Part shown: piece by piece, positions 18,255-37,610 of the stretch
Position numbering within the stretch: the stretch's first letter is position 1
Layout of the letters: the number at the start of each line of letters is the position of its first letter
NCBI GenBank assembly: GCA_020853795.1
Contig: JADYYF010000160.1
Span: forward strand, 1-37,610
Length of the DNA stretch: 37,610 bases
Origin: Candidatus Zixiibacteriota bacterium
Lineage (GTDB): Bacteria; Zixibacteria; MSB-5A5; CAIYYT01
Direction: 5' to 3'
Made by a program: the position numbers and the translations under genes
Notes under the pieces: generated by a model
The model's database searches: none
Told to the model about the DNA's origin: nothing
The model's input: the letters and a program-made list of their open reading frames with translations, nothing else

Positions 18255-18334
18255 CATGAGAACCACATTTGGCGGATAATCAGGCCGACCGTTGTGTCCT
18301 CCGCGACGCGCGGTGGTCAGAAAGGATTAAACAG

Positions 18335-18829: not shown

Positions 18830-18880
18830 CCGGCGCAAGCTGGTCGCACGGGAGAAACCATGAAAGAAGGAGTTGAAACG

Positions 18881-20836: not shown

Positions 20837-20896
20837 CGTGAAAGGCGGCCGACCGTGGCAACGCTGGTTGCCGCGGCCGGCCAAACCAGAGGTCAG

Positions 20897-21958
20897 ATGA
20901 GCAAGACTTCCCGCGCGATCCTGTTGGTGGCTGCCCTGATGTTGTCGGCAACCTACTTTCTGCCGCTGTGGCAGATTCAACTGAAGGCGCCGCAGTACCC
21001 GGAGGGGCTGGGTATCCAGATCTGGATCAATAAAATGACCGGGATCAACGAGGGTGACCTCAACAAGATCAACAACCTGAACCACTATATCGGGATGAAG
21101 ACGATTCAACCTGACTCGATCAAAGAACTGCAGATCATGCCGTGGGTGATGCGTGGAGTGATGATCCTCGGCATCGCGCTGGCACTGGTGGCGCGACCGA
21201 GATATCTGTGGATCTGGCTGGCGGTCTTTGCCGTCGTTGCGATCGCGGGTCTGGTGGACTATTACATCTGGGGGTACGATTATGGGCATAATCTGGATCA
21301 AGCCAAAGCGATCATCAAGGTTCCCGGGATGAGTTATCAGCCGCCGCTGATCGGCTCGAAGAAGTTGCTCAACTTCACGGCGATTTCGCTGCCGGGTTCC
21401 GGCGGTGTCGTGGCGATGGTATCATTCCTGATCTGGGCGGCGGTGACGTGGCGGCTCTGGCGGCAACGGGTAAACTCGGACCGTCGGCAAAGCAAGCCGG
21501 TGCTGGCCCCGATTGCGGCAGCCACATTGCTGACCCTGACTCTGCTTGGATGCACCGGCTCTCAGCCGCGGCCGATCAACTACGGCAGCGACGAATGTGC
21601 CTACTGCAAGATGACCATCGTCGAACCTGGCTACGGCTCGGCGTTGATGACCGCGAAAGGCCGGCAACTGAATTTCGACTCGATCGAATGCCTCGTCGCC
21701 TATCGTCTGAAGAATCAGACACAGGATCAAAACGGATGGACGAACTGGGTGTCGGCCGTTGACGCGCCGGGCACGCTGTATTCGCAGGACAAGGTTCATC
21801 TCGTTCACTCCGGGGAGATTCGCAGCCCGATGGGGGCAGGACTGGCGGCATTTACCAGTACCGAGGCGGCGGATGCCGCGTCCAGTGAAGCACATGGCCG
21901 CCGACTTGACTGGACCGACCTGGAGTCGCTGATTCGCCAGGAGTGGTCGATTGAGTAA
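20897..21958 (+). CDS. NosB-like membrane domain fused to NosL copper chaperone
   Basis: A 353-residue protein in two parts. Residues 1-190 form a membrane domain with about four helices (6-24, 85-101, 105-122, 168-187) and a conserved-looking extracytoplasmic loop; its position directly after nosZ matches NosB, a membrane protein of unknown function in clade II clusters. Residues 200-353 are a NosL domain: a hydrophobic stretch ending in LTLLGC (Cys219, a lipobox-like relic), then DECAYCKM (Cys234, Cys237, Met239), the Cu(I)-binding signature of NosL, and NFDSIECLVAY. NosL delivers copper for CuZ assembly. The frame is unbroken and I see no internal ribosome binding site. ATG 20897 follows AGAGGT. 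The stop overlaps the nosD start region by eight bases. Confidence 0.85.
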   Translation: MSKTSRAILLVAALMLSATYFLPLWQIQLKAPQYPEGLGIQIWINKMTGINEGDLNKINNLNHYIGMKTIQPDSIKELQIMPWVMRGVMILGIALALVARPRYLWIWLAVFAVVAIAGLVDYYIWGYDYGHNLDQAKAIIKVPGMSYQPPLIGSKKLLNFTAISLPGSGGVVAMVSFLIWAAVTWRLWRQRVNSDRRQSKPVLAPIAAATLLTLTLLGCTGSQPRPINYGSDECAYCKMTIVEPGYGSALMTAKGRQLNFDSIECLVAYRLKNQTQDQNGWTNWVSAVDAPGTLYSQDKVHLVHSGEIRSPMGAGLAAFTSTEAADAASSEAHGRRLDWTDLESLIRQEWSIE

Positions 21959-23234
21959 GAGTGACAATCGTTTCCGGCGCCGCAACTGGCGTTGCTTCGA
22001 GATGCGGGTGGTTGCTGCCGGTCTGGCACTGCTGGTCAATTCAGCTTGCCTGTACGCGAAGACCATTGTCGTCGGTGCGGGCTATGAGCATGCCACGATT
22101 TCTGCCGCACTTGGCAGCGCCGCGGCCGGCGACACGGTTGTGATCACAACCGGATTATACCGCGAGCACGACTTGCTCGTGGATCGCAAGTTGACAGTAC
22201 TTGGCCACGGCGAAGCCATCCTGGACGGCGAACTGCGCCATGCCATTATGACCGTGAAGAGCGACAGCGTGGTTGTCCGCGGACTCCATTTTGTCAACGC
22301 CGGGGTCAGCTTTGTCAAAGACAACGCAGCGCTGCGATTCGAACAGGTCATTGGCGGCATCATCGACAGTTGTCGCTTCGACGACAATTTCTTCGGCATC
22401 TATCTGGCCGACTCGCGCCAGTGCCGGATCAGCAACAACGTCTTGCAGGCCAGCCAGGAGCGCGAATCGCATTCGGGCAACGGTATCCATCTGTGGAAAA
22501 GCCGGGACATCGCCATCTACGGAAATACGATTGTCGGCCATCGGGACGGCATCTATCTGGAGTTTGTCCGGCATTCAGAAATTCAGGGAAATCAGAGCCG
22601 GCTCAACCGGCGCTATGGGCTGCACTTCATGTATTCGGACAGTTGCACGTATACGGGGAACACTTTCCGTGAAAACGGAGCCGGAGTTGCGGTCATGTAC
22701 ACAAAAGGGGTTTCAATGCTTAACAACGAATTCGCCGACAATTGGGGAGCGGCTTCCTACGGACTTCTGCTGAAGGACATCGCCGACAGTCGCATTGCCG
22801 GCAACCGCTTCCTGCGCAATACCGTCGGCATTTTCAACGAAGGCTCGACGCGGATCGTGGTCGAGAAAAATGAATTTCGCGAAAACGGCTGGGCGTTGAA
22901 GATCATGGCCAATTGTGTGGACAACAACTTCACGGGCAACAATTTCATCGCCAACGCCTTTCAGGTTGCCACCAACGGCCGCCGCTCGTACAGCACTTTT
23001 GCCGGGAACTACTGGAGCAACTACGAAGGTTACGATCTTGACCGCGACGGCATCGGCGATATCCCGTTTCGGCCGGTGAGTCTCTATTCGCTGCTGGTGG
23101 AGCGGATGCCGGGGAGTCTGATCCTCTTGCGCAGTCTGCTGACCGACGTGCTCGATCTTGCCGAACGCGTCCTGCCGTCGCTGACGCCGGAGACGTTCAT
23201 CGATGCCGAGCCGCACATGAGGATGATTCTATGA
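21951..23234 (+). CDS. nosD: Nitrous oxide reductase maturation protein NosD
   Basis: A 427-residue exported protein of the right-handed parallel beta-helix (CASH/PbH1) type. Residues 1-37 are a basic stretch plus signal peptide (LALLVNSACLYA). The body consists of ~22-residue helical turns with asparagine ladders (GNTIVGHRDGIYLE, YTGNTFRENGAGVAVMY, IAGNRFLRNTVGIFNEG). The C-terminus contains the family signature NYWSNYEGYDLDRDGIGDIPFRP. NosD works with NosF and NosY to supply sulfur and copper for the CuZ centre. The start is TTG 21951, with AGGAG eight bases upstream and overlap with the preceding gene; ATG 22002 would also keep a signal peptide but lacks a site. Confidence 0.95.
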   Translation: MSKSDNRFRRRNWRCFEMRVVAAGLALLVNSACLYAKTIVVGAGYEHATISAALGSAAAGDTVVITTGLYREHDLLVDRKLTVLGHGEAILDGELRHAIMTVKSDSVVVRGLHFVNAGVSFVKDNAALRFEQVIGGIIDSCRFDDNFFGIYLADSRQCRISNNVLQASQERESHSGNGIHLWKSRDIAIYGNTIVGHRDGIYLEFVRHSEIQGNQSRLNRRYGLHFMYSDSCTYTGNTFRENGAGVAVMYTKGVSMLNNEFADNWGAASYGLLLKDIADSRIAGNRFLRNTVGIFNEGSTRIVVEKNEFRENGWALKIMANCVDNNFTGNNFIANAFQVATNGRRSYSTFAGNYWSNYEGYDLDRDGIGDIPFRPVSLYSLLVERMPGSLILLRSLLTDVLDLAERVLPSLTPETFIDAEPHMRMIL

Positions 23235-23968
23235 TTGATATTGCGGGAGTGGGCAAACGCTTCGGCGCGACGACAGCACTGCGGGACGTGACCCTGACCA
23301 TTCCCGATGGCCGTATCACCGCCGTGATCGGTCCGAACGGCTCGGGCAAGACGACGCTCATCAAGTGCCTGTTGGGCCTGGTCACGCCGACTTCCGGGAC
23401 AATCACCATCAACGGCGTCAGGGTCAACGGCGACGCCGAATACCGCCGTCAAATCGGATATATGCCGCAGATCGCGCGGTTTCCGGACAATCTGCGAGTC
23501 GGGGAAGTGTTGGACCTGGTGCGTCGCATCCGGCGAGCACCGGTCGACGCGTCTTCTGACCTCTTCGCGAGCTTTGGACTGGATAAGGAAAAGAATAAAA
23601 AGGTCTCGTGGCTGTCCGGCGGTACGCGCCAGAAACTGAGTGCAGTGCTGGCCACGATGTTTCAGCCGGCGATTCAGATTTTTGACGAACCTACGGCCGG
23701 ACTCGACCCGCTGGCACGCGAAGTCCTGCGCGAACAACTGCGGCGCAACGGCGTCGACGGCCGGACCGTTATCATCACCTCGCACTTCTTCAGCGAGGTC
23801 GAGGCGCTGGCAGACGATATCGCCTTCCTCTGTGACGGATCGCTGCGGTTTGCCGGTTCGCTGACCTCCCTGCGTAAGCTGACGGGCGAGGAGCGGCTTG
23901 ACAATGCAATTGCACGCTTGATGCAGGGAATCCCCGGCGGCAATTCAGTGGAAAGGCTCGCGTTATGA
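23231..23968 (+). CDS. nosF: ABC transporter ATPase NosF
   Basis: A 245-residue ATPase that powers the NosDFY maturation machine for the CuZ site. Walker A GPNGSGKT at 34-41, signature LSGGTRQK at 128-135, Walker B IQIFDEP at 148-154 with TAGLDP, and the switch His in ITSHFFSEVE. The MPQIARFPDNL Q-loop segment is typical of NosF. It overlaps nosD by four bases (ATGA) and nosY by four bases, so the three are translated as a unit. Confidence 0.95.
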   Translation: MIDIAGVGKRFGATTALRDVTLTIPDGRITAVIGPNGSGKTTLIKCLLGLVTPTSGTITINGVRVNGDAEYRRQIGYMPQIARFPDNLRVGEVLDLVRRIRRAPVDASSDLFASFGLDKEKNKKVSWLSGGTRQKLSAVLATMFQPAIQIFDEPTAGLDPLAREVLREQLRRNGVDGRTVIITSHFFSEVEALADDIAFLCDGSLRFAGSLTSLRKLTGEERLDNAIARLMQGIPGGNSVERLAL

Positions 23969-24756
23969 AGCTGGTTCGTACAATCGCCTTGTTATCGGCG
24001 CGCGATGTCCTGCGCAGTCGCTGGGGTGTTGTCTTCCTGCTGTTCTTCCTGGCTGCCACCGAGGGGATGCTCCAGATCAGCGGACAAGTTGCCAAGAGCC
24101 TGCTCAATCTCATCAATCTCTCGATCCTGCTGTTACCGTTGATCTCGGTGATCTTCGGCACGATCTATTTCTACAATTCGCGCGAATTCGTCGAATTGCT
24201 GCTGACTCAACCCGTGCGACGCGGCGTTGTGCTCTCCGGGATGTTCATGGGACTGACGGCGTCGTTGGCCCTGTGTTACTGGATCGGGACGACGATTCCA
24301 TTTGTCTTCCACGGTTTGCTTTTCGGTGAGACCGCTCTGACTTTAGGGATGCTGCTGGCTGTTGGCGCTCTGCTTATCCTGAGTTTCGTCGGCCTGGCGT
24401 TCCTGACTGCCGTCTACTTCGACGACCGCGGCAAGGGTATCGGAATCGCGATGTTGAGTTGGCTGACCTTAGCCGTGGTGTTCGACGGCATCCTGTTGCT
24501 GATCGTGTATCAGTTCTCCGAGTATCCGATCGAGCGTCTGCTGCTGGCTCTGACGCTGCTGAATCCGATCGATCTCGGGCGTATCGCCTTGATCCTGCGC
24601 ACCGATTTTGCCGCGCTGATGGGACATTCCGGTGCGCTGTTTCGCGATTTCTTCGGTGCCGGCTGGGGGACGGCGGTGAGCATCGCCTCGCTGTTGCTGT
24701 GGAGTACGCTTCCGTTCCTGCTGAGCCTGCGGCGCTTTCAGAGAAAAGACTTCTGA
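23965..24756 (+). CDS. nosY: ABC-2 type permease NosY
   Basis: A 263-residue inner-membrane protein with six hydrophobic segments and the ABC-2 permease layout; FYNSREFVELLLTQPVRRG after the second helix is the characteristic cytoplasmic segment. It forms the membrane channel of the NosDFY complex. Its ATG lies within the nosF stop overlap. It closes the nos operon; no nosR or nosX (apbE-like) gene is visible, as expected for clade II clusters. Confidence 0.93.
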   Translation: MKLVRTIALLSARDVLRSRWGVVFLLFFLAATEGMLQISGQVAKSLLNLINLSILLLPLISVIFGTIYFYNSREFVELLLTQPVRRGVVLSGMFMGLTASLALCYWIGTTIPFVFHGLLFGETALTLGMLLAVGALLILSFVGLAFLTAVYFDDRGKGIGIAMLSWLTLAVVFDGILLLIVYQFSEYPIERLLLALTLLNPIDLGRIALILRTDFAALMGHSGALFRDFFGAGWGTAVSIASLLLWSTLPFLLSLRRFQRKDF

Positions 24757-24874: not shown

Positions 24875-25969
24875 TCAGTTCTTCTTGTCTTTTCGCTGCG
24901 GCGCGGCCGCCGGAGACTCGACTAACTCAATCTTGTTGTAGACGAAATCCTTGCTGCTGTCAAGAATGATCTGATCAAAGGCGGCCTTGTTGAACAGCTC
25001 ACTGTCGCGCTCAAGGTAGTTGGCGCCGAACTCCTCCTTGGGAATGATCAGCTTGTTGGCGTATCGATCCACCAGCTTGTACGGTGGCTTGACACTGAAG
25101 CTGTAGCGGCCGTATTCGACGTTGTTGAAGTCGAAGACCCGACCCTCATCCAGACGAATCAGCTCGAACTCGGAAGCCGAGAGCGTGTCGTAGCGAATTC
25201 CCGACTCCGAGTAAATCGTCGCGACCGGCACGAAGTTGAAGCTGTAGTTGGTCGTGAAGTAGATAAACTGCGACGAATCGGCGCCGGCGGTGAATTCCTT
25301 CGGGAAGAGATAGCTCTTCTTGTCAAAGATTTGATATTCACCGGGCGGGAGATAGAAATAGAAGAACTCGCGCGGTTCTTTGAGCCGGCGGTTGAGATAA
25401 CGCTCGGCGGTGTGGACAACGTACTTCTCTTCATCGCTGAGAAAGCCCTGGCGCAGGCGTAATTCGACCGGGTTGTCGAGCAGCTTCTTCTGCGGCACCA
25501 GTTCGTTGAAGGCGTTGCAGGTCGCGAACTTGTACATCCACTCTTTCTCGATGAACTGCAATTGCTCGCGATAGGACATGTCGCTGGCCGTGTCGATATA
25601 GGCGCGGTACGATGGCAACAGCGTCTCCAGCTCGGTGCGTCCCCACCAGACCCAGGAGGGGCTGTTCAGGCCATAATGCAGCACGATGAAGCGGGCGTAG
25701 GAAGAGCCCAGCAACTGGTCGAGCAACTCGCTCTTGACCGGCTCGTAGAACCAGATCGTCCATTGACGTTCGATATTCTGCACCGCCATGTCGGAAAGGA
25801 AAAGGCGATCGGCGTCGCCGGTAAGCGTCTTCGACGCTTCAAGGATCTCCTGCATGTCGTCGTTGAGATCGGTCATCTCCAGCGTCGTGGCCGCGCTCAC
25901 GGCAGTCATGGCGGCCAGCAGGCCGGCAACGATCAGCAGAGTGCGCAGGCGATATATGATGGCAGTCAT
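24875..25969 (-). CDS. Exported protein of unknown function, last gene of ExbBD/TonB-like operon
   Basis: A 364-residue protein with a signal peptide cut after VSA (about 26). The mature part starts with alpha-helical sequence (about 30-180, Trp- and Tyr-rich: QWTIWFYEP, SPSWVWWGRTELETLLPSYR), then a beta-rich second half (REFFYFYLPPGEYQIFDKK, YGRYSFSVKPPYKLVDRY) and ends in a charged KDKKN tail. I recognise no family; a GWxTD-domain assignment was considered but the key motif is absent. A very good AGGAGG lies seven bases before ATG 25969, and the gap to the preceding gene is 15 bases. The operon suggests a periplasmic role linked to a proton-motive-force-driven complex. Confidence 0.7.
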   Translation of the reverse strand: MTAIIYRLRTLLIVAGLLAAMTAVSAATTLEMTDLNDDMQEILEASKTLTGDADRLFLSDMAVQNIERQWTIWFYEPVKSELLDQLLGSSYARFIVLHYGLNSPSWVWWGRTELETLLPSYRAYIDTASDMSYREQLQFIEKEWMYKFATCNAFNELVPQKKLLDNPVELRLRQGFLSDEEKYVVHTAERYLNRRLKEPREFFYFYLPPGEYQIFDKKSYLFPKEFTAGADSSQFIYFTTNYSFNFVPVATIYSESGIRYDTLSASEFELIRLDEGRVFDFNNVEYGRYSFSVKPPYKLVDRYANKLIIPKEEFGANYLERDSELFNKAAFDQIILDSSKDFVYNKIELVESPAAAPQRKDKKN

Positions 25970-25984
25970 TGCGATTCCTCCTGG

Positions 25985-27139
25985 CTATTCGGACGTGCCT
26001 AATTGACTTGCGGGTTCGATCAGCGCCTGGAAGCCCTTGAGTTGTTGGAAGAGCTCGTCGGCGCTGGTAAAGCGGGCGGCATCTTGCAGGGCCCGAATCG
26101 ACTTCTCACCCCAGAATACCGCTTCCTTGGAAACACTTTCGATCTTGCCCCGATCGAGCGAACCGAGGTCGACCAGATACTTGGCGCTGGTCAGAATCTC
26201 AGGATAGCGCCCGGCGTTGTAGAGGTACTCGGCATAGGTGGGCAGGAATGCAACCGCCGTCGCCACGTAGATTTCGCTGTTGTAGTTGCGGGCGTAGAAT
26301 CCCTCCGGTGGATTCTGCAGGGTCTTCATCAAGTCAAGGCAGCGGCGGAAGTAGTTCCACGCCATGTCGTTTTCGTGGCTCGCATTAGTCTCGGCCAGCA
26401 GGAAGTAGGCAATGGTCTGTCCGTAAGTCGATTTCAGCGTATCGCTGGCGATAGCGGCATAATAGCTGACCATCCGCCGCAGCGAGTCCTTGACGGCATT
26501 TTCCTGCTTCATCCCGATAAACTGGTCGTTGACCCACACCGCCTTGGTTAAATTCGCCACGCCGAAGAGATTCGGATATTCCGGCTCGAGCATGTCATTG
26601 ACGCTCGCAACGTAGCTGTTCTCGCGGTCGTAGAGATTCTCGCGATTGGCGCGGCGCAGGATATTCTTGACGATCGGTGCGAAGGAATTGGAGCTGGGGC
26701 AGAAAGTCGCCGCCATCAAGATATCCTTGAGCAGGAAGGCGGTATTTCCCGGCAGGCTTGAAGTCTGCAGTTGTCCCGGCTCGAGCTTGTAGTAAGCATC
26801 AAGATAGCGGGTATAGAGCTGCAGCAGCAGACCGCGCAGCTTCTCCTGCATATCCGCGTTCTGCGGATCCTGCTTGAGTTCTTCCAGGGCCAGGAGGAAC
26901 TGGATCTCGGCGTTATAATAGTAGCTTTGGAAACGCAAAGCGTCGGAGGCATCCAGTTCGATCTTGATGGCGTTGCGCGCCAGGGTCAGGTCGTTGGGGT
27001 TGCCGCTCTGGTAATAGGAATCGAGGTAGTCGAGATACCCCTTTTCCTTTTGCGGCGTCGCGCCGGCGGCCAAAGCCGTCGACAGCAACACGAACAGCGC
27101 GACCAGAACCAGGGTCGCCGCGTGCCGATGTTTCTGCAT
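25985..27139 (-). CDS. Exported alpha-helical repeat protein of unknown function
   Basis: A 384-residue protein with a clear signal peptide (LVLVALFVLLSTALAAGA, cut near residue 25). The rest is almost entirely helical with paired-helix periodicity and many Tyr/Ala/Leu positions (YYYNAEIQFLLALEEL, YLLAET-like and AEYLYNAGRYPEILTSAKYL), as in TPR or SusD-like scaffolds, but no canonical TPR consensus is evident. Likely a periplasmic or outer-membrane-associated scaffold that works with the neighbouring exported protein. ATG 27139 is chosen because GAGGTGA lies six bases upstream; a GTG at 27148 in the same frame overlaps that site. Gap to the TonB-like gene is 22 bases. Confidence 0.7.
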   Translation of the reverse strand: MQKHRHAATLVLVALFVLLSTALAAGATPQKEKGYLDYLDSYYQSGNPNDLTLARNAIKIELDASDALRFQSYYYNAEIQFLLALEELKQDPQNADMQEKLRGLLLQLYTRYLDAYYKLEPGQLQTSSLPGNTAFLLKDILMAATFCPSSNSFAPIVKNILRRANRENLYDRENSYVASVNDMLEPEYPNLFGVANLTKAVWVNDQFIGMKQENAVKDSLRRMVSYYAAIASDTLKSTYGQTIAYFLLAETNASHENDMAWNYFRRCLDLMKTLQNPPEGFYARNYNSEIYVATAVAFLPTYAEYLYNAGRYPEILTSAKYLVDLGSLDRGKIESVSKEAVFWGEKSIRALQDAARFTSADELFQQLKGFQALIEPASQLGTSE

Positions 27140-27161
27140 AAATCTCACCTCGTATTAAGAG

Positions 27162-28145
27162 CTACAATTTCTTGAGACAGTCGTCGTAACCAAGCAAGGC
27201 ACACAGCTTGCGAGTGACGTCCTCCAAAAGCGACTCGGCGTCGTCGCTCCCGGCCCACTGGCCCGGCATCGAGACGAAATCGAGATTGGAGATATTGCCC
27301 AGCGCACCGGCGTTGACCGGGAAACGCACCCAGCGGCCGCTGTAGCGAAATTCAAAATTCTCACTGCCGCCGCGATTGATGCGCAGCCAGTCGCTGGAAT
27401 TGCGTTTTTCCTGGTCGTCGATCCCCGCGTGGGTAAACATGGTGCGCACGCACAGGCGCAGACAGACATTGACCATTTGATAATGATAGGGATCAAGCTT
27501 GACGCGCGAGAGACCGCCCTCCGCCAGCGTGCGCTGCTCGCTGTTGCCCGCAGTCCGCACCACCTCTTCCGTGCGCTCGGTGAGTTCACCGACGCTGGAA
27601 CGGCGCGCTGTTTCCGACCCGTAGTTGCGCTGCTCGACGTTTTCCATTGCCGGCATGACCGGAGTTCTTACCGCCGGCGCAGAACGGGCTATTGCCGTTT
27701 CCTTCTGGGCCTCACGTTGCAGGTCGTTTTTCTCGGCGCGATTCTTCAGCTTTTCTTGCGGACGAATATCCTGAACCCGGCTGTCCGGAACGGAGCGCAG
27801 GCGCTCGACCGGTCGCGGCTCTTCCGGTTTCGGCTCCGGCTTTGGCTTTGGCTTTACCTGCGGCTTGGGCACTTCCGGCTCGGGGATCTCGAAGATAAAC
27901 TTGGTCTCGGCCGGATTGAGCTCATCAGTCGGCAGCGTCTGCGCCAGCTCGACCGACCCGAGATACGTAACCAAGAGTAACGAAAACAGTCCAAGGCCGA
28001 CGAGCACGGCCATCAAGTTGACGAACCCGCGGCGGCCGAACGCGGCAAAGCGTCCCTCGGGGTCGGCACCGGCATGGCCCAACGCCCGGGCGACGATACA
28101 TTCGTGCTCGAGTTCGGCGTCGTCGCGATCGAAGTAAGCTTGCAT
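27162..28145 (-). CDS. TonB-like energy transducer with an unusual C-terminal domain
   Basis: A 327-residue protein with cytoplasmic N-terminus (1-40), one membrane helix (41-63), a Pro/Glu/Lys-rich rod (about 87-112, with KPKPKPEPKPEEPRP), a charged helical linker and a C-terminal domain (about 215-327). The plan and its place after ExbB and ExbD genes identify it as a TonB/TolA-like protein that would carry proton-motive force to an outer-membrane or periplasmic partner. The C-terminal domain does not show the TonB YP...A...GxV pattern; it has four cysteines (228, 232, 315, 323) that could form disulfides. GAGGAG precedes the ATG; the gap from exbD is 26 bases. Confidence 0.75.
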   Translation of the reverse strand: MQAYFDRDDAELEHECIVARALGHAGADPEGRFAAFGRRGFVNLMAVLVGLGLFSLLLVTYLGSVELAQTLPTDELNPAETKFIFEIPEPEVPKPQVKPKPKPEPKPEEPRPVERLRSVPDSRVQDIRPQEKLKNRAEKNDLQREAQKETAIARSAPAVRTPVMPAMENVEQRNYGSETARRSSVGELTERTEEVVRTAGNSEQRTLAEGGLSRVKLDPYHYQMVNVCLRLCVRTMFTHAGIDDQEKRNSSDWLRINRGGSENFEFRYSGRWVRFPVNAGALGNISNLDFVSMPGQWAGSDDAESLLEDVTRKLCALLGYDDCLKKL

Positions 28146-28171
28146 CAGTTCTCCTCAGATCAACGCGGCGA

Positions 28172-28660
28172 TTACTCGACTTCAGCCCGGTAGACCAGGT
28201 TGCACGGATACTGCAGACTCTGGCAACTGGCGACGGCCAGCGCCACCAGCCCATAGTAAGAATGCGCCCCGCTGAAGACGTCCACGCTGGCGGAATCGGC
28301 GCCGATGGCGCGTTCGCCCAGGAATCGGGTGATCTGGTCGTGCACGAACGTATAACCGCCGCTTTCCTGCAGCAGGCGGTTGTCGACCGAGACAAACAGC
28401 GTTTCCGGCGGATCGGCCAAATTGTAGATCAGCGCCATCCGGCTGGAGTCAACCTGCCGGTCTTGATCGTACACCTCGATGCGAAACGGGGTCTGCGATT
28501 CGGCCGCCTGCGCCGAGGCCTGTTTGAACGGCACTTCGATGCGTTCCACCTGGGTTGAACCGTTGCCGACGATGATGAAGAAGAAGAGCATGATGAACGC
28601 CAGGTCGGAGGCGCTCACGATGAACGGCGCCATGTTGCGCTTATTTCTACGAGCGGACAC
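28172..28660 (-). CDS. ExbD/TolR-family protein
   Basis: A 162-residue protein with a short basic cytoplasmic tail (SARRNKRN), one membrane helix (about 16-33) and a periplasmic domain. The helix contains Asp19 in SASDLAFIMLFFFIIV, aligning with the essential proton-pathway aspartate of ExbD/TolR. It forms the motor with the ExbB-like protein. I place the start at GTG 28660 because AAGGAG lies eight bases upstream and the basic tail is then complete; this overlaps the exbB stop by 14 bases. ATG 28633 would be an internal alternative. The periplasmic part is divergent, with a Cys pair near the end (SCQSLQYPCN). Confidence 0.82.
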   Translation of the reverse strand: MSARRNKRNMAPFIVSASDLAFIMLFFFIIVGNGSTQVERIEVPFKQASAQAAESQTPFRIEVYDQDRQVDSSRMALIYNLADPPETLFVSVDNRLLQESGGYTFVHDQITRFLGERAIGADSASVDVFSGAHSYYGLVALAVASCQSLQYPCNLVYRAEVE

Positions 28661-29597
28661 CGGCGTGCTCCTTGCTGTGCGCCAGCACGGCCTCAGTCTC
28701 GTGGATTTGCTGCGGAATTTGCAGCGATTCGACGATTTCGCAGACCGCGACGGCACGCACTACCATCTGATGGTGAATTTGGTCAATCACCCGGCGTGAG
28801 AAATAGGCGGCCGCAATCGCGGTGCCGAGGTTCAGCAGACCCCACAAGCTCGTGATGATCGCAACCTTCAAACCGACCGCGAATTCCAGCGAGTGCGACA
28901 GATTCGCCGCGCTCTGGCCCTGGCTGAAAATGTACAAGAAGCCGATGAGCGTGCCGAAGAAACCGGCGGCCGGCGAGGCCGTCGCAATGCTGTCGTACAT
29001 GCTCATCTCGTCCATGCTTTCAGTGATGCGATCGATGCGATTGCGGAAGTGCAGGTAGAGATGGTCGTAGCGCCCGGAAGCATTGGTCACCATCACCGAG
29101 TCCTTCAGGATGCGCCAGAATCGAGTTTGGCGGTGGTTCTGCTTCAACGTATAGTGATAGAAGTCGTCCCAAGTTTGGAACTTCTGATGCAGGAAATGCT
29201 CCAGCTCGGCATCGTCGGGATAGTACTGCTTCCGGCGCGCGGACGAGATCATGAAAATGACGAAGCGTACGACGGCGGCCAAACCGAGCGCAGCCAGAGC
29301 AAAGTAGGTCAGCAGCACGATCGTCGGGTAATTGGCTTGCATGAAGTTGGCCAGGTCGAATCCGACCGGATCAGTGGTGACCGACAAGGCGAACTCCTGG
29401 CGCTGTTCGTCAGCGACGCCCTGCTGTGCCTGTTGTTGCAACGACGTCTGAATCTTGGTGACGGCGTTCGCGTGTATGCGCCAGATGACCAGACCGGCAA
29501 TCAGCAGGACCACAACGGTCGCCAGCGCCGACACCAGATAATTGCCGCGCTTGTAGACCGGATCGGAATATTCTTGATCTTGTTTCGAGTCTGCCAT
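28647..29597 (-). CDS. ExbB/TolQ/MotA-family proton channel protein
   Basis: A 316-residue inner-membrane protein with hydrophobic segments at about 21-40, 92-118, 216-240 and 255-280. The last two contain the family hallmark ATASPAAGFFGTLIGFLYIF and AIITSLWGLLNLGTAIAAAYF, which line the proton channel. The large region between segments 2 and 3 is the cytoplasmic domain. One helix more than the three of E. coli ExbB is present at the N-terminus. ATG 29597 follows GGAGGAG at good spacing; the frame is open up to 29651 without one. First gene of a five-gene operon. Confidence 0.88.
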   Translation of the reverse strand: MADSKQDQEYSDPVYKRGNYLVSALATVVVLLIAGLVIWRIHANAVTKIQTSLQQQAQQGVADEQRQEFALSVTTDPVGFDLANFMQANYPTIVLLTYFALAALGLAAVVRFVIFMISSARRKQYYPDDAELEHFLHQKFQTWDDFYHYTLKQNHRQTRFWRILKDSVMVTNASGRYDHLYLHFRNRIDRITESMDEMSMYDSIATASPAAGFFGTLIGFLYIFSQGQSAANLSHSLEFAVGLKVAIITSLWGLLNLGTAIAAAYFSRRVIDQIHHQMVVRAVAVCEIVESLQIPQQIHETEAVLAHSKEHAGVRS

Positions 29598-29974
29598 CAA
29601 CTCCTCCGCTGTTCGCTCTCGGTTCACGCCCGATCCGGCAAGTACCGTCAAGTCTTCAGGCGATGCGCCGGTGAAGGATAGCCACGCCCCGGCTCATCGC
29701 AATGTCTGACGACTGGATCGGAACGATTTCAACGATGTTATCCAGTGACTTACACGCGCCGAATAAATGATAACGCCCCCGGTAGACGCGCTCTTACTGT
29801 TCTATTTATCGCCTGTGGGGTGGTGTTTCTTTAGGAATAGTTGAACACGATTCGGCGGTAAAGCGCTGAACTGTTCAAATCGTGCACAACTGGGGGGGAA
29901 CCCCCTTCGCGCGACCACGCACGTCCATTTTCTATCACACCAACGGGGGTCACGGACAGAAGTTCGCGGGGAAA
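29598..29974. other. Intergenic region between the oxidoreductase operon and the exbB operon
   Basis: About 375 bases without a credible gene. It contains the inverted repeat at 29839-29891, a G-run/C-run palindrome (GGGGG-GAA-CCCCC, about 29894-29906) and presumably the exbB promoter, which I could not pick out with confidence. It most likely separates two transcription units read in the same direction. Confidence 0.45.
29839..29891. repeat. Inverted repeat, possible terminator of the cytochrome operon
   Basis: AGTTGAACACGATT (29839-29852) and AATCGTGCACAACT (29878-29891) pair at 12 of 14 positions around a 25-base loop, about 85 bases downstream (minus strand) of the oxidoreductase stop at 29975. 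It could end the cytochrome-barrel-oxidoreductase transcript or bind a regulator of exbB. Confidence 0.4.
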
Positions 29975-31318
29975 CTAACGCGGACGGTGTTCGATAACCG
30001 GATCGGCAATTGCAGCTTGCTGTTCCCCGCCGAAACGGATGCCGATTTGCTGGAGCATCTCAAATGGCGGCACACCGCCGATGAACACGAAGATGTAGTC
30101 GTTGACGATCTGCACCATACCGGAGGGGGTCTTCAGCGACACCGCGGTCGCTGCGACTTCCGTCACCTGCGACTCGAAGATCGGCTTAATGCGGCCTTCG
30201 CGGATTAAGGCATTGACGCGGTCTTCGTTCTTTTTCTTGACCCGGAAGAAGCCGTTCTTGCGGTAGGAAATGCTCACGCGATTGCCGGATTGCTGTGCCA
30301 GGCCGACCGCCGCTTCGATGGCGCTGTCACCGCCGCCGACCACCAGTAGGTCAAGTCCGTGGTAGGACTGCGCGTCGATCAGTTGATACATGACCTTGGG
30401 CAGTTCTTCGCCGGGGACTTCGAGCTTGCGCGGCGTGCCGCGGCGGCCAAGCGCCAACACGACATTGCGCGCGTGATACCGGTCGTGATTGGTGGCAACC
30501 TCAAAGGCGGCGTCGGGCTGGAGCGCGATCGATTGCAGCCGCTCACCCGAGTGAACTTGCACTCCGTATTTCTGCACAATCTCCTGCCACATGCCCATCA
30601 GATACTCCTTCGTGTATTCGTCCTTGTCGAGCCGACCGTAAAGGGGAATGTCGATGGGCTGGGTCATAACGAGCTTGCGGCGGGGATAATGCAGGATGGT
30701 GCCGCCGACCTCCTTTTCGTCGATCACGAGATAATTCAGACGGTGTTCGATCGCAGTCAATGCGGCGGAGAGCCCGGCCGGACCGGCGCCGACGATCAGC
30801 ACATCGAGAAGGCGATCATGACGACTGGTGCCGATGCGCCGCGCGATTTCCGAAACGACCTTCTGGCCCTGCGCAATGGCGTTGCGAATCAGCGAGATAC
30901 CACCCAATTCGCCGGCAATGAAGATGCCCGGGACGGTTGTCTCGTTGTTCTCGTTGAGGATCGGGATATCGGGTCGTGAGCGTACGTCGCCGAGTCCGAC
31001 CTTAAGCGCGCCGACCGGGCAGGCCAGTTCGCAATAGCCGTGGCCGACGCAGCGCTCGCCGTTGATGATTGTTGCGGTGCCCCAGACGACGCCGATAACA
31101 TCGCCCTCGGGACAGGCGGCTGCGCACGAGCCGCAGCCAATGCACAAGGCGGCGTTGATCATCGGGTACTGCGCCTTGGGACGATCAATGCCAAGCGCGC
31201 GAGCTTCCACTTTGCGCTGCTCCGATTGAGCGAGAGTGCGGCGGAATTGGCGATAGTAGATATAGAATACTGCCGCTCCGAGAAGGATCACGGTCGACCA
31301 AATGATGACAGTTTCCAT
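29975..31318 (-). CDS. Membrane-anchored ferredoxin/FAD-NAD(P) oxidoreductase
   Basis: A 447-residue protein: N-terminal membrane helix (4-22), a basic linker, a two-cluster ferredoxin domain, then a thioredoxin-reductase-like FAD/NAD(P) fold. First cluster CIGCGSCAAACP (Cys59, 62, 65, 69) is canonical; the second, CVGHGYCELACP, has His93 in place of the second Cys (Cys90, 96, 100 remain). GAGPAG (177-182) is the FAD Rossmann loop and LLVVGGGDSAIEAA the NAD(P) one. The redox CxxC of thioredoxin reductase is missing, so it should pass electrons to another protein rather than a disulfide. The segment PGIFIAGELGG (130-140), normally C-terminal, precedes the Rossmann loop. As last gene after two cytochromes and a barrel, it may join NAD(P)H or ferredoxin to that chain. 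Starts 18 bases after the barrel gene. Confidence 0.82.
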   Translation of the reverse strand: METVIIWSTVILLGAAVFYIYYRQFRRTLAQSEQRKVEARALGIDRPKAQYPMINAALCIGCGSCAAACPEGDVIGVVWGTATIINGERCVGHGYCELACPVGALKVGLGDVRSRPDIPILNENNETTVPGIFIAGELGGISLIRNAIAQGQKVVSEIARRIGTSRHDRLLDVLIVGAGPAGLSAALTAIEHRLNYLVIDEKEVGGTILHYPRRKLVMTQPIDIPLYGRLDKDEYTKEYLMGMWQEIVQKYGVQVHSGERLQSIALQPDAAFEVATNHDRYHARNVVLALGRRGTPRKLEVPGEELPKVMYQLIDAQSYHGLDLLVVGGGDSAIEAAVGLAQQSGNRVSISYRKNGFFRVKKKNEDRVNALIREGRIKPIFESQVTEVAATAVSLKTPSGMVQIVNDYIFVFIGGVPPFEMLQQIGIRFGGEQQAAIADPVIEHRPR

Positions 31319-31336: not shown

Positions 31337-33028
31337 CTAAAATCGATATCCGAGTTCCGTGCGCAGACCAAGACCGTCGGTGTCGTCGCCGCGCTCCAGG
31401 CGACCGGATCCGCTCAGGAACAGATGGCGAACAATACCGGCGTAGAGAGCGATTTCCCAGGCGCGATTGCGGCGGGAACGATCATCGCCGAAGCGATAGC
31501 GATATTCGGAGTAGCCGAGATCGAAGGTGCTGCCGCTGCGGAAGTTCTGGCTCAGTCGAGCGCCATAGCTTTGACCGTCATTGACCGGGCCATCGAAGCC
31601 GGAGTAGATTAGATTCAGGCTGATCGTCCTGATTGCAAAGCCGGTTTTCGTGAGCGACATCGAATAGGAGGTCGTGGCCGTGGCTTCATCGGAGCGCTTG
31701 CGATACCCTGAGTTTAGATACAGCGAGATCCCCGCGGGCAGTCGCAGATTGAGCTGGCCCCGCACACCGCTGCGCAGTTGATCGTCGAACAGACTGTCGG
31801 CAACGGTTCGATTTTCATACGACCAGTAGTTGCGGCGATTGTCGTAGCTGATCCCGAGCGCAACGCTGCGGCTGGCCCGGTAACGCACGGTGGCGTAAAA
31901 ATTGGAGAGCACCAAGGAGCTGTTGTCCTTGCTGCGGCGCCAGCCGCGATTGACGTCGACTTCGGCGATATGCGATAGCGTCCAGCGTGAACTGAACATC
32001 GCCAATCCCTGCAAGTAAAGCAGCTCGCGGCTGGTAGTGCCGGAATGATACTCGCCGGAAAGCGCAAGGGTCTGCTCGAAGTACCCCGTCTGGCGGTTGC
32101 CGTGGGCAACCGTCACATAGCCGCCATACTTCTGCAAGCTGGCAGCTTGGGCCTGATACTGCCAACGCGGACGCATCCCGCCGAGGATCCCGAGACGCAC
32201 CGATGCAGACAAGCGGCGTTCCAGGAGGGCGCCGTCGATATAACCCGCTCCGGAAAGACGGCGCGGCAAGATTCGTCCCATCTGGAGGACCAGGGCAGCA
32301 TCCTCGGTACCGTAAGTGAGCGAAAGTTCGTGGATGCGATTGCTCCAGTCCTCGGCGGGCGCCGACCCGGCATAGGCGCGAGTGCGGTTGTCGTACTCGC
32401 CACGCGTGCGCATCGTCAACTGCAACGCTTTGCCGCCCAGTTGGCGCACTTGTAGATTCAGCCTCATCGTCGCCTGCGCGAAGTCGAGATTATTGGGGGA
32501 CTGGTCGGACCAGGAGTAGAACTGAACCGATGCGGTTCCCGCTGCCCGCGATCTTGCCGGTGGCTTCTTGTCCGCCCCGGCCCCGGTCGACTGAACGACC
32601 GCCGGAGCGTGGAGCGTGTCGACTGCCGCGCCGGAAGAGTCAGACGAGTTTTCGCTTTGCGGAGCGCGCTCGGATAGCAGCGCCAGGTCATTCGCATAGA
32701 TCTGACCGAGGCGCTCGACGATGGCGCAGGAAGCAGAGCTGTTGCTGACGTATCGGATTTCCAACACGGCGATTACGCTGTCGCCGCGGGTAATCATCAG
32801 GCGATCACCCTTGCGCAGTCCGTCCGCTCGGCCGCCGTCGAGGTAGACATTCTCCGCGGAAAGATACTTCACAACGAAGTCGCGCAGGGACGGATCGGGT
32901 GGGGCACTTGTCTGGGCTGCCAGCGACAGCCCGAATCCCAGCACCAGCACCACGGCAGCCACCAGGCGCGCGGAGAATTTCGCAAGCCGCCGGGCTGGAT
33001 TTCGGAAGAACAGCGACGCCGGGTGCAT
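31337..33028 (-). CDS. Outer-membrane beta-barrel-like protein of the multiheme cytochrome operon
   Basis: A 563-residue exported protein. Residues 1-39 are a signal peptide (VAAVVLVLGFGLSLAAQ). About 50-110 is a small beta-rich domain (ENVYLDGGRADGLRKGDRLMITRGD), similar in pattern to FlgT-type or SH3-like periplasmic modules. A low-complexity Ser/Pro/Ala linker follows, then about 380 residues of alternating strands with aromatic girdles (LYLNSGYRKRSD, RTELGYRF), ending in Phe as outer-membrane barrels do. Sixteen or more strands seem possible. Its ATG overlaps the stop of the giant cytochrome gene by one base (TGATG), so the two are made together; it is a candidate pore for a porin-cytochrome conduit. 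ATG 33028 is chosen over an upstream extension because it opens the signal peptide. Confidence 0.75.
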   Translation of the reverse strand: MHPASLFFRNPARRLAKFSARLVAAVVLVLGFGLSLAAQTSAPPDPSLRDFVVKYLSAENVYLDGGRADGLRKGDRLMITRGDSVIAVLEIRYVSNSSASCAIVERLGQIYANDLALLSERAPQSENSSDSSGAAVDTLHAPAVVQSTGAGADKKPPARSRAAGTASVQFYSWSDQSPNNLDFAQATMRLNLQVRQLGGKALQLTMRTRGEYDNRTRAYAGSAPAEDWSNRIHELSLTYGTEDAALVLQMGRILPRRLSGAGYIDGALLERRLSASVRLGILGGMRPRWQYQAQAASLQKYGGYVTVAHGNRQTGYFEQTLALSGEYHSGTTSRELLYLQGLAMFSSRWTLSHIAEVDVNRGWRRSKDNSSLVLSNFYATVRYRASRSVALGISYDNRRNYWSYENRTVADSLFDDQLRSGVRGQLNLRLPAGISLYLNSGYRKRSDEATATTSYSMSLTKTGFAIRTISLNLIYSGFDGPVNDGQSYGARLSQNFRSGSTFDLGYSEYRYRFGDDRSRRNRAWEIALYAGIVRHLFLSGSGRLERGDDTDGLGLRTELGYRF

Positions 33029-36000
33029 CAGTTGTTTCCGTCCGGGTGGCAGTTGAGACAAGCGTTGCTGTTGTACTGATACCCCGAGACTTCGTGATGT
33101 TTGTTGTTCATATCGGTCTGGTTGTGCTCGTGGCAGAAGATGCACTCGAAGACGGCATAGTTGGCGGTATTCACATGGCAATCGCTGCACACGTCCCACT
33201 TGTCTTTATGCTTTCCCGAATAGATCGGGAAGTACTGAGAGTCATGGTTCCAGTTGGCAGGAGTCCAGGCCGTGGTTGTATGGCACGCTTGACACTCAGT
33301 CGGGAACAGCGCCGCGGCGTGGTTCGGATTCGTGGTGCTGTTATAAGCAGTCTGATGGCAGCTATAACAGTTGGTCGGCGTACCCACATAACCGCCGGAG
33401 TGACAGGCGATACACTGCAACAACGCGTGGGCACCAGTCAGCGGAAACGCCGTGGTGCTGTGGTCGAATGAAGCCGGTGACCAGGCCGTGGTCGTATGAC
33501 ACTCGGTGCAGACATGGCTGAAATTGTTCTGCACGTGATTCGGATCGGTGACGGAATTGAAATCACCGGAGTGGCAGTCGTAACACCCAGACGGTGTGCT
33601 GACGTAGCCGCTGGCATGGCAGGCGATACACTGCAAGGATGTGTGCGCCCCAGTCAACGGGAATGTCGTGGTGCTGTGGTCGAACGAAGCCGGCGACCAG
33701 GCCGTGGTCGTATGACACTCGGTGCAAACATGGCTGAAGTTGTTCTGCAAGTGACTCGGATCGGTGACGGAACTGAAATCACCGGAGTGGCAGTCGTAAC
33801 ACGCCGACGGCGTAGTGACGTAGCCGCTGGCATGGCAGGCAATACACTGCAGTGATGTGTGTGCGCCGGTCAACGGAAATCCCGTCGTCGCGTGATTAAA
33901 CGTCGACGGCTGCCAGGCCGTCGTGTTGTGACAATTCACGCAATTGTGGTCGAAGTTGTTCTGCGCGTGATTCGGGTCCGTCGTCGAATTGAAATCGCCG
34001 CTGTGGCAATCGTAACAAGCTGTTGGTGTGCTGACGTAGCCGCTCGCATGGCAGGCGATACACTGCAGTGATGTGTGTGCGCCGGTCAACGGAAAAGCCG
34101 TCGTCGCGTGATTAAACGTCGACGGCTGCCAGGCCGTCGTATTGTGACAATTCACGCAATTGTGGTCGAAGTTGTTCTGCGCGTGATTCGGGTTAGTCGT
34201 GGAACTGAAATCGCCGCTGTGACACGAGTAGCAATCGCTGCTGGTACTGGAATATCCGGTAGCATGGCACGTTATACATGCCAGTCCCGCATGACCGCCG
34301 GTCAGCAAGAAGCCGGTTGTCGCATGATTAAAGGTTGACGGCGACCAGGCAGTAGTATTGTGGCACTGCAGGCAATTTTGATCGAAGTTATTGGTGTCAT
34401 GATCCGGATCGTTTGCTGAGGCAAAATCCGTTTGGTGACAGCCAATGCAGGTCGTCGCAGTTCCGGAATATGTCAAGGTATGGCAGGACTGGCAATCCAG
34501 CGGGACATGCGCGCCGGTCAACGAATAGCCGGTGCTCGCGTGATCCCAATTGGCGGGGTTCCAGGTCGTTGTCGTATGGCAGGTCTGGCATTCAGTGTCG
34601 AATCCCGCCTGCGCATGGCGCGGATTCACCTCGGAATCGTAGGCCTGCTGGTGACAAGCAATGCACGCGGTCGCCGTGTTGACGTAACCGCTGGAATGAC
34701 AGGCAATGCACTGCAGGCTCGTGTGCGCTCCGGTTAAGGGGAACTCGGTTGTACCATGGTCGAAGCTGGACGGGGTCCAAGCCGTTGTCGTGTGACAGCG
34801 CAGGCAGTCGTGATCGAAATTCTGCAATGCGTGATTCGGCTCGGTGACGGTGTTGAAATCCGTTTGATGACATGAGAAGCAGTCATTCGGGGTTGACACA
34901 TATCCGATCGCATGACAAGAAATGCAATTGACGCTTGCATGCGCCCCCGTCAGCGGGAATGCCGTCGCCGCATGGTCAAAGCTGCTTGGCGACCAAGCGC
35001 CGGTCGTGTGACAGGAAGAGCAGTCATGATCAAAATTGTTGTCGACGTGACTGGGATCAACTGCGGCGGCAAAGTCCCCCTGATGACATGAGTAACAGTC
35101 CGTCGGCGTGCCGGTATAGCCGGTGGCATGACAACTAATGCACGCCAGCGACGCGTGGGCGCCGGTCAGTGCAAATTCGGTCTGGCTATGATCGAATGTT
35201 GACGGCTCCCAGGCCGCAGTGGAGTGACAGGTGCCGCAGTCGTGGTCAAAATTGTTCTGGGCGTGATTGGGATCGAGCGCAGCGCCAAAGTCAGCCGCGT
35301 GACAAGAATAACAGAGCGGCGAAGTGTCGGTGTAGCCGCTTGTATGGCAGTTCAGGCACGCCAGCGTTGCGTGGGCGCCGGTCAGCAAGAATCCGGTGAC
35401 GGCGTGGTCGAATCCGCGCGGTTCGGCAGGTGTCCACGATTCGGTCGAATGGCACTGTTGGCACTCGTGCGGGAAGCCGTTGGTGACGTGATTGGGATCG
35501 GTTACGCCCGCAAAACTCTGGGCATGACAGGAATAGCAGTCGGAGGAGGTGTTCGCGTAGCCGCCGGCATGGCAGCTGGCGCACTCGAGTCCGGCGTGTC
35601 CGCCGGTCAGCAAGAACCCAGTGTTCGCATGATCAAAATTCACCGGCGACCAGCCGCTGGTCGTATGGCACTGCGTGCAATCGTGGCTGAAGTTGTTTGC
35701 TGCGTGATTCGGATCACTGACACCGGCAAAATTGTCGCTGTGGCAGGAGTAGCAGTCACCGGCAGTGTTGGCATAGCCGGCAGCGTGGCAACTGACACAA
35801 TCGAGCGATCGATGCGCGCCCGTTAGGGCAAAGTCCGTCTGGTTGTGGTCAAAGGTTGAGGGCTCCCAGGCGGTCGTCGTGTGGCAACCGGTGCAATTGT
35901 GATCGAAGTTGTTGGCGTCGTGATCGGGATTGTCGGCTTCGGCAAAATCGCCGCCATGGCAGGAGAAACAGTCGGTGGAAGTGTTGCTGTAGCCGTTGCC

Positions 36001-36876
36001 ATGACACTTGGCACATTCAATACCGGCATGGCCGCCCGTCAGGGGGAATGCCGTCAGGTCGTGGTTGAATGTCGCCGGCGACCAGGCGACGCTGTTGTGA
36101 CAGACGGTGCAATTGTGGTCGAAGCTGGCTTGCTCGTGATCCGGATCAGGTGCGGATTGGAAATCGCCGGCGTGGCAAGCGAAGCACTCGTTGACCGTAC
36201 CGGCAAACTGCGTGGCATGACAGGCAATGCATTCGAGGCCGGCATGGCCGCCCTCGAGCCGGAACTCGGGCGGATGATCGTAACGGGCGCCGCGCCAGGT
36301 GTTCGCCGCGAGACTGTGGCAAGTTTCGCAATCGAGCGGGAAGGCTGCCAACTCATGGTCGGGATTGTCGGTCGAGCGAAAATCGTCGTCGTGACAGCCG
36401 GCGCATTCGGTCGGCGTGCCGGCAAAATCATCGCGTAGTTGGTTGACGTGACAGGCATTGCAGTCGGCGATCGCGTGCACGCCGGTCAGGGTGAAGCCAA
36501 GTGCGGCGTGCTGGTCGAAAAGCTCGCGGCGATTCTCCCAGCTTTCGGAAGTATGACAACTTTGACATTGATCGCCCAACTTGCCGCGATGAATGTCGCT
36601 GTGGCAATCGGCACAGCGGTCCTTGGTTTCAGCGAATTTGAGATCCTTGTGACAGGAAATGCAGGCAGTCTGTCTGTGGGCACCGATCAATGGAAACCCG
36701 GTGTCGTCGTGATCGAAGCTGCCGTCCGACCTCATCTCTGTCCAGGAGGTGGACGTATGGCACGCCTCGCAGGCCAGATCGATGTCGCCATGCGGGTTGC
36801 GCGAGCCGCCCAGCGACAATACCAACATCAGGCCCATTCCGACGATCGCGATGACGAAGATTGACAACTTCTTCAC
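33028..36876 (-). CDS. Giant multiheme cytochrome c, 52 CxxCH motifs in a tandem repeat
   Basis: A 1282-residue exported cytochrome. The first ~23 residues are an uncleaved or cleavable signal (MKKLSIFVIAIVGMGLML). I count 52 CxxCH heme sites. From about residue 250 on the protein is a ~72-residue repeat with three hemes each: CTECHTTTAWSPASFDH, FPLTGAHTSLQCIACH, GYVSTPSGCYDCHSGDF, then DPNHxxNNFxH. Extra conserved His in FDH, TGAH, PNH and FxH could be the sixth ligands for bis-His hemes. The C-terminal copies are nearly identical in DNA. Start is GTG 36876, overlapping the upstream cytochrome stop (GTGA). It should act as a long electron wire in the periplasm or at the cell surface. No lipobox, S-layer or anchor motif is evident. 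Confidence 0.93.
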   Translation of the reverse strand: MKKLSIFVIAIVGMGLMLVLSLGGSRNPHGDIDLACEACHTSTSWTEMRSDGSFDHDDTGFPLIGAHRQTACISCHKDLKFAETKDRCADCHSDIHRGKLGDQCQSCHTSESWENRRELFDQHAALGFTLTGVHAIADCNACHVNQLRDDFAGTPTECAGCHDDDFRSTDNPDHELAAFPLDCETCHSLAANTWRGARYDHPPEFRLEGGHAGLECIACHATQFAGTVNECFACHAGDFQSAPDPDHEQASFDHNCTVCHNSVAWSPATFNHDLTAFPLTGGHAGIECAKCHGNGYSNTSTDCFSCHGGDFAEADNPDHDANNFDHNCTGCHTTTAWEPSTFDHNQTDFALTGAHRSLDCVSCHAAGYANTAGDCYSCHSDNFAGVSDPNHAANNFSHDCTQCHTTSGWSPVNFDHANTGFLLTGGHAGLECASCHAGGYANTSSDCYSCHAQSFAGVTDPNHVTNGFPHECQQCHSTESWTPAEPRGFDHAVTGFLLTGAHATLACLNCHTSGYTDTSPLCYSCHAADFGAALDPNHAQNNFDHDCGTCHSTAAWEPSTFDHSQTEFALTGAHASLACISCHATGYTGTPTDCYSCHQGDFAAAVDPSHVDNNFDHDCSSCHTTGAWSPSSFDHAATAFPLTGAHASVNCISCHAIGYVSTPNDCFSCHQTDFNTVTEPNHALQNFDHDCLRCHTTTAWTPSSFDHGTTEFPLTGAHTSLQCIACHSSGYVNTATACIACHQQAYDSEVNPRHAQAGFDTECQTCHTTTTWNPANWDHASTGYSLTGAHVPLDCQSCHTLTYSGTATTCIGCHQTDFASANDPDHDTNNFDQNCLQCHNTTAWSPSTFNHATTGFLLTGGHAGLACITCHATGYSSTSSDCYSCHSGDFSSTTNPNHAQNNFDHNCVNCHNTTAWQPSTFNHATTAFPLTGAHTSLQCIACHASGYVSTPTACYDCHSGDFNSTTDPNHAQNNFDHNCVNCHNTTAWQPSTFNHATTGFPLTGAHTSLQCIACHASGYVTTPSACYDCHSGDFSSVTDPSHLQNNFSHVCTECHTTTAWSPASFDHSTTTFPLTGAHTSLQCIACHASGYVSTPSGCYDCHSGDFNSVTDPNHVQNNFSHVCTECHTTTAWSPASFDHSTTAFPLTGAHALLQCIACHSGGYVGTPTNCYSCHQTAYNSTTNPNHAAALFPTECQACHTTTAWTPANWNHDSQYFPIYSGKHKDKWDVCSDCHVNTANYAVFECIFCHEHNQTDMNNKHHEVSGYQYNSNACLNCHPDGNN
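33400..36150 (-). repeat. 216-base coding tandem repeat within the giant cytochrome gene
   Basis: The sequence GACGTAGCCGCTGGCATGGC occurs at 33601 and 33817, and a two-base variant at 34033, each exactly 216 bases apart; weaker copies continue to about 36150. The period equals 72 codons and three heme motifs. Copies nearest the 3' end of the gene (33400-34300) are almost identical while those toward the 5' end have diverged, which points to recent expansion at the 3' end. Bounds are approximate. Confidence 0.85.
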
Positions 36877-37610
36877 GGTTGCGTCCGATTTTGCAGTAGT
36901 TCAGAGTCGTGACAAGACTTGCACGCAGTGCTTAATGGCTTATATCGGACTACCAGGGTCGAATCTGTAGATTCACTTTTGTGGCAGCCGCGACAGGGAA
37001 CCTTAAGATGGGCGCCTTCCAGTTTATATGCAGAGTCGCGGTTGTGGTCGAAATTAATGTCCGACCAGTGTGTAGAAAAGTGACAGCGCGCACAATCGGT
37101 TGGCGGCTTGGCGCTTGCCGCTGCAAATTGCCCGCGGTGTGCATCCTGATGACAGTCGGCACAAGCGAAGTTAGCGAGCACAAACTTCATCGCGGCCGGA
37201 TCGAATTTCTTTGGATCGCTGGAATGGCATTGGCGGCAGGGAGTTGTCGCATGCTTGCCGACCAGAGGAAACTTGGTCTGCGTGTGATCAAACGCGACCT
37301 GCCCCCAGCTCTCGACTCGGTGACAGCTCTCGCAGGTGCTAGCAGTGGACAGCTGCTTCTGGCTGCCCTTGTGCGGGTCGCCGTGGCATGCCTCGCAGGC
37401 GGTTGATGCAAACGCGAAGCGATATTCGGGCTTCGCGGTTTGCCTGGTCTTCGCAGTATGACAGCCGTCGCAGGGCACGGCCAAGTGCGCTCCGGCGAGC
37501 GGATATTGCGATTGCTGATGCTGTTCGATTGTGAACTTGGCCGGGCGGAAGCCTGCGACGCTGTGGCACTCTTCGCAAGCGCCCTGTGCAGGTCTATCGG
37601 CGAATTGCCC
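36873..37610 (-). CDS. Multiheme cytochrome c (5' end beyond the window)
   Basis: The frame is open to the window edge, so the N-terminus is missing. The visible 245 residues carry nine CxxCH motifs (CEECH, CDGCH, CEACH, CESCH, CRQCH, CADCH, CARCH, CRGCH, CKSCH) and the same accessory pattern as the giant cytochrome (FDHTQTKFPLVGKH, FDHNRDSAYKLEGAH), so the two belong to one cytochrome c3/c7-like repeat family. A TTG inside the frame at 37484 is not a credible start because heme sequence continues upstream. The stop overlaps the GTG start of the giant cytochrome by four bases, showing one operon. It probably hands electrons to the larger protein. Confidence 0.9.
   Translation of the reverse strand, partial: GQFADRPAQGACEECHSVAGFRPAKFTIEQHQQSQYPLAGAHLAVPCDGCHTAKTRQTAKPEYRFAFASTACEACHGDPHKGSQKQLSTASTCESCHRVESWGQVAFDHTQTKFPLVGKHATTPCRQCHSSDPKKFDPAAMKFVLANFACADCHQDAHRGQFAAASAKPPTDCARCHFSTHWSDINFDHNRDSAYKLEGAHLKVPCRGCHKSESTDSTLVVRYKPLSTACKSCHDSELLQNRTQP

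Follow-up and report, generated by a model that had tools for sequence, protein, structure and literature searches.

A 52-heme repeat cytochrome from Candidatus Zixiibacteriota, putative outward wire of a PCC3-like porin-cytochrome conduit

Porin-cytochrome conduits of the PCC3 kind were proposed in 2017 (He et al., PMC5566968) and have been published in Proteobacteria. They comprise a porin, an extracellular cytochrome with a median of 34 and up to 85 hemes, a periplasmic cytochrome with a median of 21 hemes, both with 22-39 residues per heme, and an inner-membrane protein of approximately 300 amino acids containing five helices, SGxxG and two WX3HX13H motifs (PMC5566968). The extracellular cytochromes are rich in T, S, A and G and possess heme-bearing repeats, and the PCC3 cytochromes were regarded as long enough for spanning the envelope (PMC5566968). 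In Gallionellaceae, the outer cytochromes contain 10-35 and the periplasmic ones 21-27 hemes, and they were modelled as long, mostly linear molecules (PMC10734462). Porin-cytochrome operons of Zixibacteria were flagged earlier by FeGenie (PMC7005843). Two large cytochromes beside an outer-membrane barrel, as in the locus studied here, also occur in a Burkholderiales cluster, where cytochromes with 24 and 49 hemes (22-23 residues per heme) precede a porin. According to the available text on this cluster, CxxCH domains were inserted and deleted in the 49-heme protein beside the porin; the porin was placed in an OmbB-like family, unlike here, and a fixed 72-residue unit is not described in that text (PMC7399161). 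Very many hemes per chain are furthermore known from ANME archaeal cytochromes (up to 86, PMC9012536), likewise proposed as outward conduits. Compared by description, these differ from the protein presented here by S-layer and other domains, an archaeal envelope and the lack of a barrel.

The window, i.e. the whole analysed stretch of 37,610 nucleotides, is identical with a complete contig. On its minus strand, the ORF at positions 33028-36876 starts with GTG and encodes a cytochrome of 1282 amino acids with 52 CxxCH motifs, while the other five frames across this region contained only 0 to 1 CxxCH each and many stops. Every Cys of the protein resides within a CxxCH. Out of 117 His, 65 lie outside of these motifs. 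The chain has approximately 24.7 residues per heme and is composed of 38% T+S+A+G and 2% K+R, giving a net charge of about -100. Its predicted Sec-type signal sequence, read from the sequence, covers about residues 1-25 (VKKLSIFVIAIVGMGLMLVLSLGG; 36802-36876, minus strand). It is followed by NPHG, which is conserved among the homologues. Neither a lipobox nor an outer-membrane secretion signal was identified in the protein sequence.

Judged by motif spacing and by comparison with homologues, the mature protein consists of an N-terminal cap with seven hemes (36313-36801), an array of 14 three-heme units of 72 residues (33280-36312) and a C-terminal cap with three hemes, which contains WNHD, SGxH and a third His (33031-33279; all minus strand). 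The hemes are spaced 36-16-16-35-19-25-33 in the N-terminal cap, the last figure leading into the array, and 35-15-28 in the C-terminal cap, 35 being the step from the array. Within the units the spacing is 15-25 and between them 32, apart from a single 35 in front of unit 5, which harbors a 3-residue insertion. The three-heme period is exact in 12 units and nearly so in two. Thus, a recount affirmed both the 52 motifs in 1282 residues and the 72-residue repeat which the preliminary description had reported, and placed 14 units between the caps. Its remark that 52 ranks among the higher counts for one polypeptide is true insofar as the number is high, but it is not exceptional, as relatives contain 55, 67 and 73 hemes and the published maxima per chain are 85 (PMC5566968) and 86 (PMC9012536).

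Ligand statistics were obtained from 103 canonical units of the 52-heme protein and its relatives. In addition to the three CxxCH, each unit contains three His conserved in 100% of the cases (103/103), which are located at -16 (F[DN]H), -5 (GAH) and +31 (P[ND]H) relative to the first heme Cys. A fourth position, FxH, had been counted among the conserved ones together with FDH, TGAH and PNH; it is occupied by His in only 46% of the 103 units and is dispensable. The caps follow the same rule, with seven invariant extra His for seven hemes at the N-terminus and three for three at the C-terminus. The candidate distal ligands hence add up to 7 + 42 + 3 = 52 for 52 hemes, in agreement with the earlier proposal of one extra His for each heme. 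Because of this 1:1 conservation, all 52 hemes are probably bis-His ligated.

The Pfam family Cytochrome_C7 matched the 52-heme protein with E=7.6e-51. Tandem three-heme modules on one chain are also the building principle of GSU1996, a Geobacter dodecaheme cytochrome made of four triheme c7-type domains, whose hemes are in close contact (edge distances 3-5 angstroms). GSU1996 is a periplasmic protein with one His-Met heme per domain, whereas the protein presented here apparently uses His ligands throughout, combines 14 units with two caps and is encoded in an outer-membrane operon. PDB sequence searches with the 52-heme protein and with profiles of its unit and of the barrel revealed no real relative, and there was no sequence match to GSU1996. 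An AlphaFold2 model of five units, which was based on an alignment of 19 in-phase rows, had low confidence (pLDDT 52.9, pTM 0.26), and no structural match was obtained by Foldseek with this low-confidence model. The PDB searches did not match the 52-heme protein to the solved filament cytochromes OmcS, OmcE and OmcZ either. This argues against a subunit polymerising end to end like these proteins, an idea which may be derived from the export of a multiheme chain and from the two conserved caps, since the latter could be end-to-end joints. Moreover, a covalent array makes polymerisation needless, and a chain of variable length contrasts with the fixed size of filament monomers. We regard a filament subunit as highly unlikely.

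The 52-heme gene is tightly clustered with its neighbours, all of which lie on the minus strand. Upstream, the TGA of a partner cytochrome gene overlaps its GTG start (GTGA). The contig ends inside this gene, so that only the C-terminal part with nine CxxCH (36873-37610) is present in the window; it aligns to residues 363-597 of a 20-heme relative with 50% identity. Intact relatives contain 20 hemes. The remainder of the gene was sought in the assembly of the source genome and not found. Downstream, the likely ATG of an outer-membrane beta-barrel gene (31337-33028) shares one base with the stop codon of the 52-heme gene. Its product has about 22 predicted strands, a small N-terminal beta domain and the C-terminal sequence GYRF. 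It is followed by an oxidoreductase (29975-31318), which has a membrane anchor at its N-terminus and combines two Fe-S sites of the ferredoxin type with an FAD/NAD(P) domain (YpdA-like). The second ferredoxin site of this protein reads CxxHxxCxxxCP, a His replacing a Cys, and the same was seen in the Emticicia homologue. Beside the operon, the window contains ExbB/ExbD-like genes along with genes for three proteins without a clear family (24875-29651, minus strand); none of the examined relatives had this block beside the operon.

In the relatives, a gene for an inner-membrane protein adjoins and precedes the 20-heme gene, a position that would fall past the contig end in our window. Two HX13H pairs and SGxxG were found in the proteins of all 21 loci as well as in that of a plasmid described below, and a simple hydropathy scan of the same set revealed five hydrophobic segments in most of them. 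Most also exhibited WX3HX13H, the first W being absent in five.

The locus and its relatives thus resemble PCC3 by their described features, which include a barrel, one large cytochrome of variable size (16-73 hemes; 24.7 residues per heme in the window), another one with mostly 20 hemes and a five-helix inner-membrane protein bearing the PCC3 signature. The T+S+A+G content of the long chain and its 72-residue units also agree with the PCC3 outer cytochromes. Furthermore, the acidic, T/S/A/G-rich chain and the basic partner (net charge +18 versus about -100) fit the split into an outer and a periplasmic cytochrome. The locus differs by its conserved Fe-S/FAD oxidoreductase, which is additional here, by its barrel, since the published porins have more strands (up to 42 predicted), and by its hosts. 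New are the strict unit, the different unit repeated by a sister clade, and the hosts themselves, namely Zixibacteria, an Acidobacteria MAG and a plasmid of a Bacteroidota isolate. Membership in the Mtr family (MtrAB / PioAB / MtoAB) was rejected. The barrel had neither a Pfam match of the MtrB/PioB type nor a PDB sequence match, and Foldseek with the barrel model (pLDDT 69, about 22 strands) retrieved outer-membrane proteins in general, MtrB appearing at rank 39 and scoring no better than general porins.

Among 133 Zixibacteria genomes, 33 encoded homologues of the barrel, and the same gene set was present in the Acidobacteria MAG and on the Bacteroidota plasmid. The order of the cytochrome, barrel and oxidoreductase genes is kept in most intact loci; in the sister clade, the oxidoreductase is located on the opposite side, and the Acidobacteria MAG has the barrel ahead of the cytochromes. 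A search for homologues with the 72-residue period, as suggested previously, was successful. Including the protein of the window, the long chains have 16, 19, 22, 28, 43, 52, 55, 67 or 73 hemes, the number changing by whole units. Intact partners in the clade of the window possess exactly 20 hemes and the partner is nearly constant across the relatives, as in Gallionellaceae PCC3, where the long cytochrome varies as well (PMC10734462). In Zixibacteria RBG_16_53_22, a 10-heme copy consisting of the N- and C-terminal caps with zero units directly follows a 43-heme gene (L062:4417-5244).

These lengths bear on the role of the protein, which had been proposed to span the periplasm. A rod bridging the inner and outer membrane, the 20-heme partner being in or outside the barrel, would be compatible with a Sec-type signal that lacks a lipobox and with the envelope-spanning length noted for PCC3 cytochromes (PMC5566968). 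However, a length range of about 4.5-fold (16 to 73 hemes) with unchanged partners is unexpected for a compartment of fixed width, so that this role was not supported as stated. Since its length is constant while that of the long chain is not, the 20-heme partner is the better candidate for spanning the periplasm. With 12 hemes over about 12 nm, GSU1996 rises by about 1 nm for each heme. Provided that the rise of the 52-heme chain is similar, it would reach about 50 nm. This would exceed the usual periplasm, which favours an outward wire, and we deem the periplasmic rod unlikely. Alternatively, the protein might be an electron capacitor that holds charge in the periplasm when an acceptor is absent, its length determining capacity and not reach. 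GSU1996 and large cytochromes have been suggested to act in this way, and as capacity scales with the number of units, length would be free to drift. On the other hand, storage requires neither a conserved operon with a barrel nor caps at both ends, which suggest a directed path, and we consider the capacitor quite unlikely.

We favour, with a probability of about 60%, that the 52-heme protein is the outward-facing long cytochrome of a PCC3-like porin-cytochrome conduit and acts as a single-molecule wire, a reading that appears more likely than the rod or the capacitor. The conduit is suggested by the signal sequence, the 52 heme sites, the conserved extra His for each heme and the tight gene cluster; the regular multiheme chain of the preliminary description thereby stands, now within an electron-conduit operon and with a 1:1 complement of His ligands. 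The term wire is based on the likeness to GSU1996 and to AlphaFold models of PCC3 (PMC10734462). Electrons would pass between the cytoplasm or the quinone pool and an inner-membrane pair composed of the Fe-S/FAD protein and the five-helix protein, putatively of b-type. The constant 20-heme cytochrome may carry them across the periplasm to the barrel, through which they would gain access to the variable 52-heme chain extending outwards. How far this chain reaches would depend on its count of 72-residue units, which tandem duplication and loss would alter. If the wire reading is true, length is encoded by the count of near-identical units, which would make it possible to study, in a single protein family, how heme number affects reach, rate and storage.

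The preliminary description had also considered that the repeat number might be an artefact of assembly. The draft assembly is split into 215 contigs, this contig stops inside the next cytochrome gene, and two close relatives have contig breaks in or at the barrel. Yet, the units are only 43-84% identical in DNA, mostly 50-65%, and because the longest exact repeat within the gene is just 52 bp, an artefact is very unlikely. In addition, colinear arrays are present in two independent assemblies of one genus, one with 19 units (67 hemes) and the other with 21 (73 hemes), two units having been inserted or lost. A 40-heme homologue is encoded by the completely sequenced plasmid pEMTOL02 of Emticicia oligotrophica DSM 17448, and the longest exact repeat of this gene is 109 bp. 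On these grounds misassembly was rejected, its chance being close to nil.

How the arrays change was also visible from comparisons of single units. In the 19- and 21-unit arrays of the same genus, each unit best fits its positional counterpart. Between distant relatives, the units at the two ends of the array tend to pair with those in the corresponding position, while those in the middle often pair with adjacent units of their own chain. The latter finding is consistent with growth of the array by tandem duplication. The sister clade, whose monophyly is supported at 0.999 in a tree of the barrels, has instead multiplied a unit of the C-terminal cap type (34-15-26), whose three extra His are 90-100% conserved. 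At somewhat less than even odds, we propose a length-tunable single-chain wire whose fixed caps dock to the conduit while 0 to about 21 units are freely adjusted during evolution. In this view, two lineages have each multiplied a unit of their own, and the entire operon is able to move on a plasmid.

In the Bacteroidota isolate E. oligotrophica DSM 17448, the whole module together with ccsA resides on pEMTOL02 (L126, NC_018749.1, 76432-97350). It encodes the inner-membrane protein, the Fe-S/FAD oxidoreductase, cytochromes with 23 and 40 hemes, and the barrel; the locus tag of the 40-heme homologue is EMTOL_RS21105 and that of the barrel EMTOL_RS21110. In the 40-heme homologue, two His of the central units are displaced by a residue or two where the spacing differs. 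As this strain is named and deposited and its plasmid is complete, it offers a bench-testable system; otherwise, the operon was found here only in draft genomes. Other plasmid matches to the 20-heme and inner-membrane proteins had short cytochromes as neighbours and were not counted as PCC3, since neither a long array nor an annotated barrel accompanied them. No match was obtained in the phage collection searched.

The source genome contains two further adjacent cytochromes on contig C52 (L121:3-3145) with at least 14 and at least 26 hemes, respectively. Their regular spacing of 21-28 residues represents a repeat type unlike the 72-residue unit. Elsewhere in the window, a Sec-dependent nitrous-oxide reductase gene (nosZ) is preceded by a c-type cytochrome gene and followed by nosD and ABC-transporter-like genes (18269-24756, plus strand), and the protein encoded at positions 3877-4836 (minus strand) carries a type I dockerin domain at its C-terminus.
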